Positions 56,872 through 63,739 of a stretch of DNA of 64,000 nucleotides are shown here, one piece after another. Each line of letters opens with the position of its first letter. Positions within the stretch are counted from its first letter, which is position 1. The position numbers were made by a program, and so were the translations under genes. The notes beneath the pieces were generated by a model. It was not told the origin of the DNA, did no database searches, and was given only the letters and a program-made list of their open reading frames with translations. This DNA comes from Granulimonas faecalis (GTDB lineage: Bacteria; Actinomycetota; Coriobacteriia; Coriobacteriales; Atopobiaceae), in the NCBI RefSeq assembly GCF_022834715.1, contig NZ_BQKC01000001.1, positions 1,648,501 through 1,712,500 on the forward strand, given 5' to 3'.

Positions 56872-57696
56872 TCAGCGGGCATGGGCCCCCGCACCCTCCA
56901 CTGGGTCGTTGACGGCGGCGCCGGCCTGGGGGTCCCCGGCAAAACGTATGGCGGGCTCCGGCCCCACCCAGAGGTCGGGGCGGTGCAGCGGCAGCTCCGG
57001 CGCCGGGGCCGACGGGTCGAAGCCGGCCTCGCGGAGGGCGGCCGTGTAGGCGGCGAGGCCTGCGCGGGTCTCCGCCACGACGGAGTCAAAGACCTCCTGG
57101 ATGAGGTCGCGGGGCAGCAGCTCGTACGTGGTGCGCTCGGGTGGCCGGCGTGCGGCCTCCACGATGGCGCGGTCGGCCGCGGCGGCGCGCGCCACGTCCG
57201 CGGCCTCGACGGCGTACTGGGGGAAGCGCGCGGCGGCCGCGACGAGCGCGGGCGTCACCTCCACCGTGGACGAGATGCCGAGGGAATGGCCGAAGAGGTC
57301 GAAGTCCCCCTGCTTGGCGATGCGAGTCCGCTCGCCGCTGGGGATGGAGCGGGCCTCGTTGAAGGTGCGGACGCAGGCGTTGTAGCGGTTGTCGGCGAGC
57401 AGGTGCGCCCAGGCGCCGAGCACCACGTCGTCCACGCCGCCCTGGGGGATCGCGGGGGCGACCCAGTCGTCCCAGAACCGGCCCACCTCGGGCACGGGGA
57501 TGTGCGTGGGCTGGCCGTAGTGGGTGTCGATGTAGCGGAGGGTGTGGGAGACGTCCGGCGCCATGTAGCCCACGTAGATGTCGGGCACGAGGTTGCCGAA
57601 GAGGAACAGGTTGGCGTCGCGGATGCCGAGGGTCGCGGCGTCCCCGGGCGCCAGGACGTGCTCGACGAGGCCGGTGTGGATGTTCCAAGAGGGCAT
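56872..57696 (-). CDS. Zinc-dependent phospholipase C-like protein
   Basis: 274 residues. The N-terminus MPSWNIHTGLVEHVL and the segment NLFLFGNLVPDIYVGYM (about 29-45) match Zn-dependent phospholipase C-like proteins (Zn_dep_PLPC), where Trp, His and Asp residues bind zinc. Further His/Asp candidates occur in YIDTHYG (about 55-61), WAHLLADNRYN (about 96-106) and DLFGHSLG (about 132-139). No signal peptide is present, unlike secreted phospholipases, so an intracellular phosphohydrolase role is also possible. It is minus strand, 91 bp before the GntR gene's start region. Confidence 0.65.
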   Translation of the reverse strand: MPSWNIHTGLVEHVLAPGDAATLGIRDANLFLFGNLVPDIYVGYMAPDVSHTLRYIDTHYGQPTHIPVPEVGRFWDDWVAPAIPQGGVDDVVLGAWAHLLADNRYNACVRTFNEARSIPSGERTRIAKQGDFDLFGHSLGISSTVEVTPALVAAAARFPQYAVEAADVARAAAADRAIVEAARRPPERTTYELLPRDLIQEVFDSVVAETRAGLAAYTAALREAGFDPSAPAPELPLHRPDLWVGPEPAIRFAGDPQAGAAVNDPVEGAGAHAR

Positions 57697-57936: not shown

Positions 57937-58398
57937 GTGATCTCTGCATCCATCGACGCCAAGGCCTTCGGCCCCGTGACCTCCGAGCGCATCGAGCGCG
58001 CCATGGACTGGTGCCGCACCGTGGACCCCGCCACCCTCGAGCTCGGCCGCAACGACATCGACGGCGACGACGTCTTCGCCAACGTCATGCGCTTCGACAC
58101 CGCCCCCGCCGGCACCAAGGACTACGAGGCGCACCGCGACCACATCGACATCCACTACGTCTTCTCGGGCGTGGAGCTCATGGGGATCGCCCGCATGAAG
58201 GACTGCACCCCCAAGGGCGCCTTCGACGAGGAGAACGACTTCGTCCTCGTGGAGCAGCCCGAGCTGGAGAGCTGGGTCGTCACCCAGGCCGGCGAGTTCT
58301 GCCTGACCGCCCCGGCCGACGCCCACAAGCCCGGCTGCAGCCTCGACGCCCCGGCCCCGCTCTTCAAGGCCTGCGTGAAGGTCCGCATCGCCGACTAG
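57937..58398 (+). CDS. YhcH/YjgK/YiaL family protein
   Basis: 153 residues, the usual length. The core YEAHRDHIDIHYVFSGVE (about 66-83) and the late PADAHKPGCSLDAPAPLFKACVKV (segments about 127-150) hold the conserved His/Glu/Asp set of this cupin-like family. Members act on sialic acid or related sugars as anomerases or modify beta-galactoside metabolism. No sialic-acid genes are adjacent. The start is GTG 57937 with CTAAGGAG upstream. The stop is followed by the GACAAGG repeat and the left border palindrome of the island. Confidence 0.87.
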   Translation: MISASIDAKAFGPVTSERIERAMDWCRTVDPATLELGRNDIDGDDVFANVMRFDTAPAGTKDYEAHRDHIDIHYVFSGVELMGIARMKDCTPKGAFDEENDFVLVEQPELESWVVTQAGEFCLTAPADAHKPGCSLDAPAPLFKACVKVRIAD

Positions 58399-58413: not shown

Positions 58414-58439
58414 GACAAGGTACCAGGTTGGTTTGTCAC
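58414..58439. repeat. GACAAGG...TTTGTCAC element, copy 2
   Basis: 26-bp sequence matching 5895-5920 at 22 of 26 positions, 16 bp after the YhcH stop and 15 bp before the island border palindrome. Confidence 0.55.
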
Positions 58440-58453
58440 CCCCCTGCCCTCCC

Positions 58454-58501
58454 CTGCGCCTGAAAGCCGTTGTGGGCACCCTCAGCGACTTTCAGGCGCA
58501 G
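58454..58501. repeat. 48-bp border palindrome, left copy
   Basis: CTGCGCCTGAAAG and CTTTCAGGCGCAG form the outer 13-bp arms; the inner part is imperfect. It is inverted relative to the copy at 61186-61233, with about five mismatches in 48. It supplies the last three codons and stop of the Cys-rich gene at 58492. A run of eight G follows it on the plus strand. Confidence 0.85.
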
Positions 58502-59025
58502 AGGGGGGGGCGAAGAGGCAGAGTCTCTCGACAGCGAAACGCACTTCGTGGGCAGCCTAGGCCCCGATTTTGGTCAAGAGCGGCCCGGCGAATCGCTCCG
58601 CTGGCAGCAGCCAGGAGTTCGTCGAGTGTGCACTCGCGAAGAACCCAATCCCGCACAAAATGGGGCATGCCCTTCGTGTGAATAATTAACCGCAAGAACG
58701 AGCACCTGCGCTTGTCCGAAACCAGCCCAAATGCAACCCGCTCCCGACTCTCCTCAAAGAGCATGGAGACCGAAGTCTCACCGCCACAGCCGAAGTTGTT
58801 AATTAAACAACCAAGCTTCTTCTCAATTTCTTTCTGTTGCAAAAGGAAAAGAGTCTCGGTCACTTCGAGAGGATCGCAGCGACTCGCTCCAGATGATCTG
58901 CCAGAAGCCCTGAACGAGCCGGTTGAAAAAGACTCCCATACGCCAGCCCTCACATCACAGGACGTGGCAAGGCGCCCGTTGAACAGGGTGGTTCGGCACA
59001 GGCACGCCTCGCGCTCACCCCTCAC
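58492..59025 (-). CDS. Cys-rich protein of the island, function unknown
   Basis: 177 residues from GTG 59025, which overlaps the permease stop (GTGA) and has GGGGGAGG upstream. Ten Cys are scattered along it (CLC at the start, then SCD, RCDP, GCLINNFGCGG, RCSF, ECTL, GCP, RCR and LCA). The middle (about 75-150) looks folded, with a Gln/Glu/Lys helix and a strand FLRLIIHTKG. The last residues ...PLRPPLCA and the stop lie within or beside the border palindrome, so the true C-terminus may have been replaced. Base composition is lower in GC than the neighbourhood. No family recognised. Confidence 0.55.
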   Translation of the reverse strand: MRGEREACLCRTTLFNGRLATSCDVRAGVWESFSTGSFRASGRSSGASRCDPLEVTETLFLLQQKEIEKKLGCLINNFGCGGETSVSMLFEESRERVAFGLVSDKRRCSFLRLIIHTKGMPHFVRDWVLRECTLDELLAAASGAIRRAALDQNRGLGCPRSAFRCRETLPLRPPLCA

Positions 59026-59690
59026 GAGACCTCCCCCGTCGGGCGAAAGCGGCTGCGGGCCAGCACCCGGAAGGCCCCGAAGAAGGCCGCCGACGCCGCC
59101 CACAGGCCGGCGGACACCCCGAGGACCCCAAAGCGGGGCAGGAAGGCGAGCACCGCCACCGCGAGGACGACCAGCACCGTGGCGATGTAGGCGATCTGCA
59201 TGTCGTCGGAGTCGCCGAAGACGAGCCCCCAGGGCGGGGCCGAGGACACGGCGAGAGCCACAATCCCTGATATGAGAAAAATAACGTTTATAATGTTATT
59301 CTGCATCAGCGCGGAGGCCGCGGAGACGTCGACCGCACAGTAGACGGCGACCAGCGAGATGCCAAATACAAGCCCCGTCATGGCCGGCAGTGCGGCCGCG
59401 CCCATGAGATAGCTCAACAGGGGGCGCCTCTCCAGGCAGACGCGCTGCAGGACGCCCGACCTTATGTCGTCCCTCACGATCAGAGAGTAGAACTGCATGG
59501 AGATGGTCAGGACAGTACCACTATAAAGAAAGAGCTCTAGCGACTGGGACCCCACCAAAGGGGCCAGCGTCCAATAGGGTTTTACGAGCAGAAGCCCAAA
59601 AAACCAGACGTATGCGAACCCTATCCAAGCAGTCTCTTTGAAAGATCTCTTTATAAACATAAGACTTTTATAAAAGAGCGCACCGACCAC
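59022..59690 (-). CDS. ABC-2-type permease of the island
   Basis: 222 residues, six predicted helices: about 20-40, 50-70, 100-120, 135-155, 165-185 and 190-210. It has no solute-binding partner and resembles ABC-2 export permeases that pair with a separate ATPase. It starts at GTG 59690, only 2 bp after the ATPase stop, and is coupled to the Cys-rich gene after it. AT-rich stretches (for example near 59640-59675) and codon choice differ from the chromosome around it. Likely substrate is a modified peptide, by analogy with radical SAM operons. Confidence 0.8.
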   Translation of the reverse strand: MVGALFYKSLMFIKRSFKETAWIGFAYVWFFGLLLVKPYWTLAPLVGSQSLELFLYSGTVLTISMQFYSLIVRDDIRSGVLQRVCLERRPLLSYLMGAAALPAMTGLVFGISLVAVYCAVDVSAASALMQNNIINVIFLISGIVALAVSSAPPWGLVFGDSDDMQIAYIATVLVVLAVAVLAFLPRFGVLGVSAGLWAASAAFFGAFRVLARSRFRPTGEVS

Positions 59691-59692
59691 AG

Positions 59693-60397
59693 TCAGCTCC
59701 CCTCCCCCACGTGACGCACCGTCGCAAAGTACCTGCTCTCAAGCTCATCGCGCGAGCATTCCGCAAGCGGGAAGCCGTCAACCAAAGATCCCTCGTCAAG
59801 CACGACGGCCCTTCCCCCAACCTTGTGGGCGAGGTCGAAGTCGTGGGTGGCTACCACCACCGCAGACCCGACATCTGCCATTTCAGCCGCGGCTTGAGCC
59901 ACCACCACCCGGGTCTCGGGGTCGACGGCGGCGGTGGGCTCGTCGAGGAGCAGCACCTCGGGCGACTCTGACAGCGCAAGCACTAAGGCGGCCCGCACAA
60001 ACAGGCCGGAGGAAAGCTCGCGACAGGGCGTGTCCATGTAGCTTGCAATCCCCATTCGCCGCGCCCATCGCTCTCCCTGAGCCACAACGTCTGAGTTGCC
60101 TAGGTATTTTTCTCTGAACCGCAGGTTCTCGCGGGATGATAGACGCTCTTCCACGCCCCATGGCCCCGTCACCAGCGCCATGCCGTCCATCCTGGTCATA
60201 TGCACGGCGATGGCGCCCTGAGACGGCTTGAGCACCCCATAGATCAATTTGAGCAGCGTGGTCTTTCCCGCGCCGTTGTGGCCCAAAAGGCAGCAGACGC
60301 CCCCGTCGATGTTCAGACAGAACCCATCAAACACCTGTTTTTTGCGCAGCAGCGTCCTATAGGAGAACGAGACGTCGGACACGTCGATAGATGGCAC
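59693..60397 (-). CDS. ABC transporter ATPase of the island
   Basis: 234 residues. Walker A is GHNGAGKTTLL (about 39-49), the signature reads ELSSGLFVRAAL (about 128-139; LSSG instead of LSGG), Walker B is VLLLDEPTAAVDP (about 149-161), and the switch His is in VVVATHDFDLA (about 181-191). The catalytic residues are intact. The type fits exporters of peptides or lantibiotic-like products. GTG 60397 is the start; it follows the radical SAM gene after 4 bp, and the permease follows after 2 bp. Confidence 0.9.
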   Translation of the reverse strand: MPSIDVSDVSFSYRTLLRKKQVFDGFCLNIDGGVCCLLGHNGAGKTTLLKLIYGVLKPSQGAIAVHMTRMDGMALVTGPWGVEERLSSRENLRFREKYLGNSDVVAQGERWARRMGIASYMDTPCRELSSGLFVRAALVLALSESPEVLLLDEPTAAVDPETRVVVAQAAAEMADVGSAVVVATHDFDLAHKVGGRAVVLDEGSLVDGFPLAECSRDELESRYFATVRHVGEGS

Positions 60398-60401
60398 GGT
60401 C

Positions 60402-61169
60402 TCACCCCTCAGCGTCTAGACTCTTGAAGCAGGTGCCCCACCAGAGGCAACGACCGCTTTTCTCTCCATGGGCAGTTGCCCATCCCACGGCCCTGCAACC
60501 TTTGCACTCGTCCACACGGTCGCAGCCTCCGCACCGCTCCGGAGATGGGTCAGCGATGGCCCTCATCTTGCGTGCCCCGTTCTGCCTGACCGTTTCAATG
60601 GTTTGACGCGACAAATTGCCAATTGTTTCCGGCAAAAGCGGGCATGGTCGCACAGAGAAGTCAGGCTCCACGTACCAGAGGCGCTCCCCTGTCCCACATC
60701 CGTAGGCCAACGCCTCGGCATTGGGCACCGCCTCTTCGTCGGCCAATACAACCGAGAAGTCCTCAGTTTCAAACTTTTCCTGCAGGCTTCGTAGAAGCCT
60801 ACGCACAGATGACGGGCGCCACGGATGCTCGCCCTCCAGCCCCACCGCTCTTCCTTCTGACAGCACGGAAGCCAACCGAAACGAAGAGACACCCCATGAG
60901 CGAGCCAGTGCACAGGTTGCCTCGGCCTCGCCGCTCGACTGGTCAATCAGCGCCATGGCACAGGCCACGCGCGCGCCCCTGCGCACAGCTTCTCTCACAA
61001 AGTGCTCAACACTCGCAAAAGCCCACGGAACCCCCCGGATAGCATTATGGCGCTTCTCAAGACCATCAAGGCTCACCTGCACACCAAGGCCCTGGATGGC
61101 GAGCATGTCGAGCACCCTGTAAGTACTATCCGTGTTCACGGCGCCCGAGGTGGTGACCTCTACCTGCAC
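60402..61169 (-). pseudogene. Radical SAM/SPASM protein lacking its N-terminal cluster motif
   Basis: 255 residues can be read from ATG 61169. The sequence begins in the middle of a radical SAM barrel (VEVTTSGAVNTDSTYRVLDM, like the usual TNG strand) and continues with VQVSLDGLEKRHNAIRGVPW. The C-terminal SPASM domain is well preserved: CGGCDRVDECKGCRAVG near 215-231 and later Cys residues (CLWWGTC). The CxxxCxxC that binds the catalytic iron-sulfur cluster should lie about 80-100 residues earlier. Upstream in frame there are only 12 or so codons before a stop inside the border palindrome. So the gene is truncated and almost certainly inactive unless joined to another part. Confidence 0.85.
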
Positions 61170-61185
61170 TCCGCCATGGCAAAAA

Positions 61186-61233
61186 CTGCGCCTGAAAGCG
61201 GCTGAGGGTGCCCTCAGCCGCTTTCAGGCGCAG
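61186..61233. repeat. 48-bp border palindrome, right copy
   Basis: Nearly perfect palindrome (22-bp arms around TG). On the minus strand it is followed by GTTTTTGCC, so it could also terminate the pheST transcript, whose last stop is 43 bp upstream. It is the inverted partner of 58454-58501 and truncates the radical SAM gene. Confidence 0.9.
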
Positions 61234-61276: not shown

Positions 61277-63739
61277 CTAGCTGCGCACCTCGGCGCCCAG
61301 GGACTTGGAGATCTTGTTCACGAGCTTCTCCATGGCCTTCTCCACGTCGGCGGCCGTCAGCGTGCGGTCGGGGGCGCGGAACGTGAGTGCGAACGCCATG
61401 GACTTCTTGCCCGGCCCCACACGTACGGGGTCGCGGTACACGTCGAACAGGCGGATATCGGCTAGGAGCCTGCCGCCGGCGCTCTGGATGCGCTGGACAC
61501 AGGTCTCGTAGTCCATGTCCTCGTCCACCACGATGGCCAGGTCCTGCTCCACGCCGGGCAGCGTGGGGATGTCGCGGTAGGGCAGCTGGTCCTGGGCGTG
61601 GTCGAGGAGAGCGTCCTGGTCGAGCTCGAAGGCCACGACGTCGCGCTCGATGCCGAACCGCGCCAGCGAGCTCGGGTGCACGTTGCCCAGCCAGCCGATG
61701 CGCTGCCTGCCGCAGAGTACCTCGGCGGCGCGGCCGGGCTGCAGCCAGGGGTAGCGCTCGGGTTTGGCGGCCTTGAAGCGCAGGCGCTCCACCTTCAGCT
61801 GGCGGCAGAGCTCCTCCACGAGGCCCTTGGCGTCGAAGAAGTCCAGCGGCAGGGGCTTGCTGTCCCAGGTGTCGGGGCCCCAGGCGCCGCAGAGCACGGC
61901 GGAGACATAGCGGGGCTCGGCGGGCTGGGCGGCGTCGGGGCTGCCAAAGAAGACGCGGCCCTGCTCGTAGAGCATCACGTCGTCCACGCCGTGGTCCAGG
62001 TTGTAGGCCACGGAGCGCAGCAGCCCCGGCACGATGCTGCGGCGCATCTCGCCCTGGTCGGCCGTCAGCGGGTTGAGGATGCGCACGGCCTGGCCGCGGC
62101 CGTCCTCGACCATACCAAGGCGCTCGAGGTCGCCCGACTCGGCGAAGTTGTAGGTGAGGGTCTCGCAGAGGCCGCCGGCCCTGAGCGCCTCGCCCACGGC
62201 CTTGTCCAGGCGCTGGCGACGGGTGAGGCCGCCCGAGTGGTTGACGGCGCCGGGGATGGTGGGCTCGACCTCGCCCATGCCCCAGAGGCGGAGCACCTCC
62301 TCCACGAAATCGATCTCGCGCTCGAGGTCCGGGCGGGAGGTGGGGGGCACGACGTCCAGGTAGGCGCCCAGGCGCGACGGCACCACCACGCAGCCCAGGC
62401 GGGCGAGGCTCTCCACCATGAAGTCGGTGGGGATGTCCGCGCCGCAGAGCTCGCGCACGCGGGCCGGACGCAGGGCGACGGTGTCGGCCTTCACGGGGTC
62501 CGGGTACACGTCCACGGCGCCGCGGGCCACCTCGGCGCCGCAGCAGGCCTCGAAGAGCGCGCACGCGATGGCGGCGGCCTCGTCGCAGCCGGCGGCGTCG
62601 ACCTTGCGCTCGTAGCGGATGGAGGCCTCGCTCATGAGGCCGAGGTCGCGGCTCGTGCGGCTGGTGTGGCCGGGCGAGAAGCACGCGCTCTCGAGGAGGA
62701 CGTCGCAGGTGGACTCCTCCACCTCGGAGTTCTCCCCTCCCATGACGCCGGCGAGCGCGATGGCCTCCCCGTTGCCGTCGGAGATCACGGTCATGTCGGG
62801 CGTGAGCTCGCGGTCCTGGCCGTCGAGGGTCACGATGTGCTCGCCGTCGCGGGCCGGGCGCACCACCACGGCGTGCCTGCCGTCCACCACGGGGACCTTG
62901 GCCAGGTCGAAGGCGTGGAGCGGCTGGCCGGTGAGGTACATGACGTAGTTGGTGACGTCCACCACGTTGTTGATGGGGCGGCTGCCGGCGGCCGTCACGC
63001 GACGGGCCAGCCACTCGGGCGACGGGCCCACCTTGACGCCGCGAAGCACACGGGCGCAGTAGCGGCTGCAGCGACCCGGGTCCTCGATGGCCACCGACAC
63101 GGAGTCCTTGGTGGCGGGGCCGGCCTCGTGGCGAACGGCGGGCAGCTCGATGTGGGTGTCCTCGCCCAGGGTGGCGCCCACCTCCACGGCGAAGCCCGTC
63201 ATGGACAGGCAGTCGGGGCGGTTGGGCGTGATCTCGCAGTCGAGTACCACGTCGGAGACGCCCAGGTACTCGCCGGCGGGCACGCCCACGGGGGCGTCGT
63301 CGGGCAGCACCATGATGCCCTCGTGGTCGCCGGAGAGGCCGAGCTCGCGGGCCGAGCAGTTCATGCCCCACGACTCCACGCCGCGGAGCTTGCTCTTCTT
63401 GATCTTGACGTCGCCGGGCAGGACGGCGCCCACCATGGCCACCACCACATGCTCGCCGGCCGCCACGTTGGGCGCGCCGCACACGATCTGCAACGGCGCG
63501 GGGTCGCCGTTCCCGTCGACGTTGCGCATGCCCACGTCCACCATGGTCACGTGCATGTGGTCGGAGTCGGGGTGCGGCTCGCAGGACAGGATGCGGCCGG
63601 TGACCACGTGGTCGAGGTCCGCGCCCACCGGCTCCACCGCCTCGACCTCGGTGCCGGTGCGGACAAGCTCGGCGACCAGGTCCGACACATCGTCGGGCAG
63701 GTCGACCATGGTCTTCAGCCACTCGTAGGAAACTCGCAT
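61277..63739 (-). CDS. pheT: Phenylalanyl-tRNA synthetase beta chain
   Basis: 820 residues, full length. An N-terminal tRNA-binding OB fold (about 40-155), B3/B4 editing domain (about 215-380), B5 domain (about 405-475), the non-catalytic class II core (about 490-690) and a C-terminal FDX-ACB anticodon domain (about 727-819) can be placed. It opens MRVSYEWLKTMVDLP. With PheS it forms the alpha2-beta2 enzyme that charges tRNA-Phe. It starts 50 bp after pheS on the same strand. ATG 63739 has GAGAAAGG upstream. Confidence 0.96.
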   Translation of the reverse strand: MRVSYEWLKTMVDLPDDVSDLVAELVRTGTEVEAVEPVGADLDHVVTGRILSCEPHPDSDHMHVTMVDVGMRNVDGNGDPAPLQIVCGAPNVAAGEHVVVAMVGAVLPGDVKIKKSKLRGVESWGMNCSARELGLSGDHEGIMVLPDDAPVGVPAGEYLGVSDVVLDCEITPNRPDCLSMTGFAVEVGATLGEDTHIELPAVRHEAGPATKDSVSVAIEDPGRCSRYCARVLRGVKVGPSPEWLARRVTAAGSRPINNVVDVTNYVMYLTGQPLHAFDLAKVPVVDGRHAVVVRPARDGEHIVTLDGQDRELTPDMTVISDGNGEAIALAGVMGGENSEVEESTCDVLLESACFSPGHTSRTSRDLGLMSEASIRYERKVDAAGCDEAAAIACALFEACCGAEVARGAVDVYPDPVKADTVALRPARVRELCGADIPTDFMVESLARLGCVVVPSRLGAYLDVVPPTSRPDLEREIDFVEEVLRLWGMGEVEPTIPGAVNHSGGLTRRQRLDKAVGEALRAGGLCETLTYNFAESGDLERLGMVEDGRGQAVRILNPLTADQGEMRRSIVPGLLRSVAYNLDHGVDDVMLYEQGRVFFGSPDAAQPAEPRYVSAVLCGAWGPDTWDSKPLPLDFFDAKGLVEELCRQLKVERLRFKAAKPERYPWLQPGRAAEVLCGRQRIGWLGNVHPSSLARFGIERDVVAFELDQDALLDHAQDQLPYRDIPTLPGVEQDLAIVVDEDMDYETCVQRIQSAGGRLLADIRLFDVYRDPVRVGPGKKSMAFALTFRAPDRTLTAADVEKAMEKLVNKISKSLGAEVRS

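Follow-up and report, generated by a model that had tools for sequence, protein, structure and literature searches.

A lower-GC block resembling part of a sactipeptide-like operon lies between dispersed 3'-end palindromes in Granulimonas faecalis

In Granulimonas faecalis, a gut-type actinobacterium of the family Atopobiaceae, the interval between yhcH and pheT contains a block of four minus-strand ORFs between two 48-nt palindromes. The block is foreign DNA with a lower GC content than its host, and homology to an intact operon in Olsenella suggests that it derives from the interior of a horizontally acquired sactipeptide-like operon. We propose, with a probability of roughly 60%, that this fragment is non-functional and that its cut ends lie at the palindromes because the palindromes were its breakpoints. 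The block would then be a genomic scar, suggesting that such repeats can mark DNA breakpoints, and not a working cargo element. Coordinates without a prefix refer to the window, the whole 64,000-nucleotide stretch analyzed, and those prefixed C1 to the wider genome of the same organism.

A foreign block in the yhcH-pheT interval

Along the minus strand, the block consists of a C-terminal radical SAM/SPASM maturase fragment (60402-61184), an ABC transporter ATPase (59693-60397; PF00005, 5.9e-20), an ABC-2-type permease, which is a membrane protein (59022-59690), and a frame that we call ORF4 (58492-59028). The ATPase and permease are full length. On the left, the native flank is a plus-strand gene of the yhcH/YjgK/YiaL family (DUF386; 57937-58398; PF04074, 1.4e-33), next to a gene at 56872-57696 that we take to be zinc-dependent phospholipase-like, a name assigned by assumption. 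The native flank on the right is pheT (61277-63739, minus strand; TIGR00472, 1e-218).

The left palindrome (core 58454-58501) is imperfect, with 20 of 24 symmetric positions pairing, and stretches outward via C/T- and G/A-rich arms to about 58447-58508. The right palindrome (61186-61233) is a perfect hairpin with 23-bp arms and a 2-nt spacer. An earlier note on this DNA had described two inverted 48-nt palindromes bracketing the block, with neither a transposase nor a target-site duplication, and our analysis agrees on each point. The pair is 90% complementary, no transposase or recombinase was recognized among the block ORFs, and no direct repeat surrounds the island as a whole (58447-61233). 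The block thus shows neither the recombinase or transposase nor the target-site duplication that characterize a composite transposon or a genomic island with defined ends. A direct repeat, AAAAAC...AAAAAC, flanks the right palindrome itself.

The same note had attributed a foreign base composition to the four genes, which GC3 percentiles bore out. Relative to 156 reference genes, called by a simple rule from sampled stretches of the same genome, all four ORFs fall in the lowest 1-15% for GC, GC3 and codon index. By GC3, the radical SAM fragment ranks at the 4th percentile, the ATPase at the 13th, the permease at the 15th and ORF4 at the 0.6th, and the flanking genes pheT and yhcH rank at the 85th and 99th, respectively.

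The site was then compared with its counterparts in the nearest sampled relatives as judged by pheT identity, namely G022 (78%), G073 (77%) and G002 (73%). G022 and G073 keep the order of the putative phospholipase-like gene, yhcH and pheT, and in both the convergent yhcH and pheT are separated by about 120 bp containing a hairpin terminator and no island. The corresponding gap in G002 is 364 bp, also with no island. These empty sites, which the earlier note had predicted for close relatives, support a foreign insertion. The island is a lineage-specific insertion that none of the three closest sampled relatives has in this interval; because the genus is represented by one genome in the collection, this comparison is between genera only.

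An intact homologous operon in Olsenella

Olsenella sp. Marseille-P4559 (L080:4628-9944, NZ_LR027574.1) carries an intact homologous operon in the order precursor, AlbA-like radical SAM/SPASM maturase, ABC ATPase, ABC-2 permease, TldD-like and TldE-like. The earlier note had derived the block from a peptide-modification and export operon and suggested a search for the full-length version; this homologue, with the same gene order, supports that derivation. The 65-aa precursor, which is hydrophobic and contains two Cys, is encoded beside the maturase (L080:9747-9944). The maturase is a 447-aa protein with a PqqD-like N-terminus, a CPLRCMHC motif and a SPASM region. Its best NCBIfam match is AlbA (9.7e-26), at 90 bits compared to a curated cut-off of 850, and it was the only close radical SAM relative found among 398 genomes of the class. 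Predicted from its genes, the Olsenella locus is an intact peptide cluster of AlbA-like/TldD-TldE type, apparently a rare one.

The 255-aa radical SAM fragment in the window aligned at 32-33% identity (2e-40) with the part of the Olsenella maturase that starts near residue 194 of 447, and its SPASM match was just under the curated cut-off. The frame opens at the edge of the right palindrome, and homology starts within about 20 nt of it. About 190 N-terminal residues are therefore absent, including the CxxxCxxC motif, and since homology runs only from residue 194 on, the SAM/[4Fe-4S] site has been lost from the window copy. A separate N-terminal part was not recognized among the 18 radical SAM (PF04055) matches in the same genome. 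A single-sequence scan of genome contigs and a search of viral contigs returned no close relatives of the fragment, and plasmids yielded only a 29% match. The precursor gene present in Olsenella has no counterpart between the right palindrome and the fragment. Sactipeptide or subtilosin-like operons, whose products carry Cys-to-alpha-carbon thioethers, encode a Cys-containing precursor next to a maturase with both CxxxCxxC and SPASM, genes that the Olsenella homologue also has; with a SPASM region only and no such precursor gene, the window block is a remnant rather than a member of this class.

The two transport genes matched their Olsenella counterparts as well, the ATPase at 39% identity (1.6e-42) and the permease at 25% over 123 aa (E 8e-7). 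The Olsenella permease matches PF01061 weakly, and the window permease had no relative at E 1e-3 in the 139 other genomes of the family.

For ORF4, listed as 58492-59103, a start near 59025 that overlaps the stop of the permease gene is more likely. It enters the left palindrome in frame, and its stop codon lies inside the palindrome. ORF4 occupies the place of tldD after the permease in Olsenella, and its similarity to the N-terminal part of the TldD-like protein is weak and collinear. The zero-diagonal ungapped score was equalled by 2 of 1000 shuffles and the gapped alignment gave a z of about 3.6, although the start of the TldD stretch was picked after inspection, which makes these figures somewhat generous. 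BLASTP and Pfam matches of ORF4 to TldD were not significant, nothing convincing emerged from Pfam, NCBIfam, plasmid tblastn or PDB sequences, and a single-sequence AlphaFold model had a pLDDT of 42, too low for use. ORF4 is probably the 5' piece of a tldD-like gene whose remainder is missing. The earlier claim that the palindromes cut the outermost genes at both ends thus holds for the radical SAM gene and is only probable for ORF4.

A dispersed family of 3'-end palindromes

Far from being confined to the island, the palindromes belong to a dispersed, REP-like, species-specific family of 3'-end repeats. Pattern searches of the chromosome identified about 24 places with a copy or half-copy, and a reversed-pattern control gave 0 matches genome-wide, which excludes chance. 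Hardly any variation is seen in the outer arms (CGCCTGAAAGC...GCTTTCAGGCG). Stem positions 15-17 do vary; there, several copies pair via changes on both sides and others are mismatched, so stem pairing seems to be maintained, but not strictly. One copy (L037, C1:1308836-1308892) has a longer, also palindromic centre, GTACGTGCGAGGCACGTAC, indicating that loop length varies within the family. By heuristic gene calls, no copy falls inside an apparent gene, and in most cases a stop codon precedes the copy by no more than about 150 nt; both yhcH and pheT have a copy at the 3' end. Exact 10-nt arm matches, which would miss diverged versions, were absent from the other 139 family genomes. An Rfam search returned only chance matches to microRNA-like or snoRNA-like hairpins, below gathering scores. 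Other long hairpins, both of this genome and of G073, vary between genes and have no common sequence, and the palindromes are therefore better described as a repeat family than as ordinary terminators.

The right copy differs at 2 positions from a copy at C1:400898 and at 5 from the left copy. It lies 43 nt 3' of pheT and is followed on the minus strand by TTTTT, and an 81-nt stretch containing it folds at -57.9 kcal/mol, which suggests that it would serve as the pheT terminator. Most copies have no T tail.

Copies are clustered: 6 gaps between neighbors measure at most 3 kb, and uniform placement would give 0.78 (p 1.5e-4). A repeat that recombines or duplicates locally would be expected to show this pattern. 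At one locus (L025, C1:394500-406000), a pair 1.4 kb apart (399457-400942) encloses a block with a GC of about 0.60 compared to 0.69 and a CmpB-like (PF06541) gene. At another (L029, C1:1786500-1803500), a 7.2-kb span contains four palindromes, of which two lie in DNA that is itself locally repeated; the ABC transporter genes beside them include a permease whose frame appears to be disrupted.

A second dispersed motif, M2 (GACAAGGTACCAGGTTGGTTTGTCA; also GACAAGGTACCNGGTTGNTTTGTCAC), has about 11 copies in the genome, often just 3' of stop codons, and at least four are closely followed by a palindrome. One copy (GACAAGGTACCAGGTTGGTTTGTCAC, 58414-58439, plus strand) lies 15 nt 3' of yhcH, beside the left island palindrome. 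The remaining listed copies are at C1 positions 398491, 400951, 675435, 759150, 759406, 846086, 848709, 1807695 and 1950149, with 398491/400951 and 759150/759406 forming inverted pairs. M2 was not found in the relatives' loci examined, and neither M2 nor the palindrome was found in viral contigs.

The genome also encodes two RAYT-like Y1_Tnp genes, at C1:1621491-1621820 (L082) and C1:2023727-2024056 (L081), with no palindrome within about 5 kb of either. We rejected RAYT mobilization of the palindromes because these genes lack flanking palindromes.

Proposed breakpoints at palindromes and comparison with known systems

The earlier note viewed the block as cargo moved by, or trapped between, palindromic elements; in the first case the palindromes would form the ends of the moved unit. 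The genome-wide search revealed a resident repeat family rather than island-specific elements. With about 24 copies, no transposase linked to them, no target-site duplication flanking the block and no second demonstrated example of a truncated cargo block, movement by the palindromes is unsupported. The best reading is a foreign operon trimmed or joined at 3'-end palindromes. Such an operon may have entered the convergent yhcH-pheT region, between family palindromes acting as the 3'-end hairpins of the two genes. Each copy is almost identical to its own inverse, so that any pair of them can behave as direct repeats and, by recombining, delete the intervening DNA. Homologous recombination or slipped mispairing between a resident 3'-end copy and a copy or hairpin inside the operon could thus have removed the outer genes; a second possible route is the repair of breaks at extruded hairpins. 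Trimming from both sides would have cost the operon its precursor and tldE, together with most of tldD and the catalytic part of the maturase. Counting against this scenario, no intermediate is known in which a full operon occupies the site with the palindromes, each of the two island palindromes has other close relatives within the family, and the homology of ORF4 to TldD is no more than suggestive. The data are compatible with either the palindromes or the island having come first.

The palindromes and the island may instead be independent, with yhcH and pheT each having its own palindrome and a broken fragment landing between them, so that their abutment reflects coincidence or ordinary spacer loss. 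Palindromes stand at many gene 3' ends without any island, the left copy is accompanied by M2 as at other gene ends, and the right copy makes a good pheT terminator. However, no more than about 20 nt separate the radical SAM break from one palindrome, and ORF4 runs into the other; two chance abutments are unlikely, and copies of the palindrome cluster in pairs. We consider this explanation possible but rather unlikely, and less likely than breakpoints at the palindromes.

Also less likely than breakpoints, and quite improbable in our judgment, is that the palindromes are mobile non-autonomous elements (MITE/REP-like) that either delivered the fragment within a composite unit or settled at its ends. 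The confinement of copies to 1 of 140 family genomes, the AAAAAC repeats around the right palindrome, and the presence of RAYT-like Y1 transposase genes would fit mobility. However, no target-site duplication surrounds the island, no regular direct repeats were found at the other copies, and the RAYT-like genes are not flanked by palindromes. In the two other paired copies examined, the genes in between are unrelated and do not look truncated where they meet the palindromes.

It is scarcely credible that the block is a functional reduced export module, with the ABC ATPase and permease providing self-immunity beside a radical SAM remnant: the two frames are full length and open, but this may just reflect recent loss, codon usage is unadapted, no minus-strand promoter was recognizable, and a hairpin-T5 terminator lies directly upstream. 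Given that no promoter stands out and that the pheT terminator is just upstream, the fragment is very probably dead. We see only a slim prospect for a broader proposal, in which the family acts in this lineage as a mobile element or a hotspot of recombination that captures and trims foreign DNA at gene 3' ends, its REP-like hairpins setting the borders of acquired genes.

Compared to known systems, the parent operon resembles the subtilosin type, in which the peptidases are the AlbE/AlbF pair. The Olsenella locus shares a maturase with AlbA as its best match, ABC export genes, a peptidase pair and a hydrophobic, Cys-containing precursor. It differs in that the maturase scores far below the AlbA cut-off and the peptidases are TldD/TldE-like (M103), and the window copy is a fragment. 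The palindromes resemble intrinsic terminators in sitting 3' of genes, and on the pheT strand a T5 tail follows the right copy; unlike terminators, they have a sequence common to two dozen places, mostly without such a tail.

REP elements of the GTAG and CGTC superfamilies are short, dispersed, species-specific, extragenic palindromes located downstream of coding regions, some in close pairs (PMC3733652), and the family described here shares all of these features. Its copies differ in being 48 nt long, near-perfect and about 24 in number; their flanks vary and show no constant tag, neither an unpaired GTAG nor an unpaired CGTC being seen beside the stem. Unlike in the GTAG type, the palindromes do not flank a RAYT gene. 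If the palindromes were indeed the breakpoints, the yhcH-pheT block provides a concrete case of a decayed, horizontally acquired biosynthetic operon broken at a species-specific 3'-end palindrome, and it supports the idea that REP-like hairpins shape gene loss.
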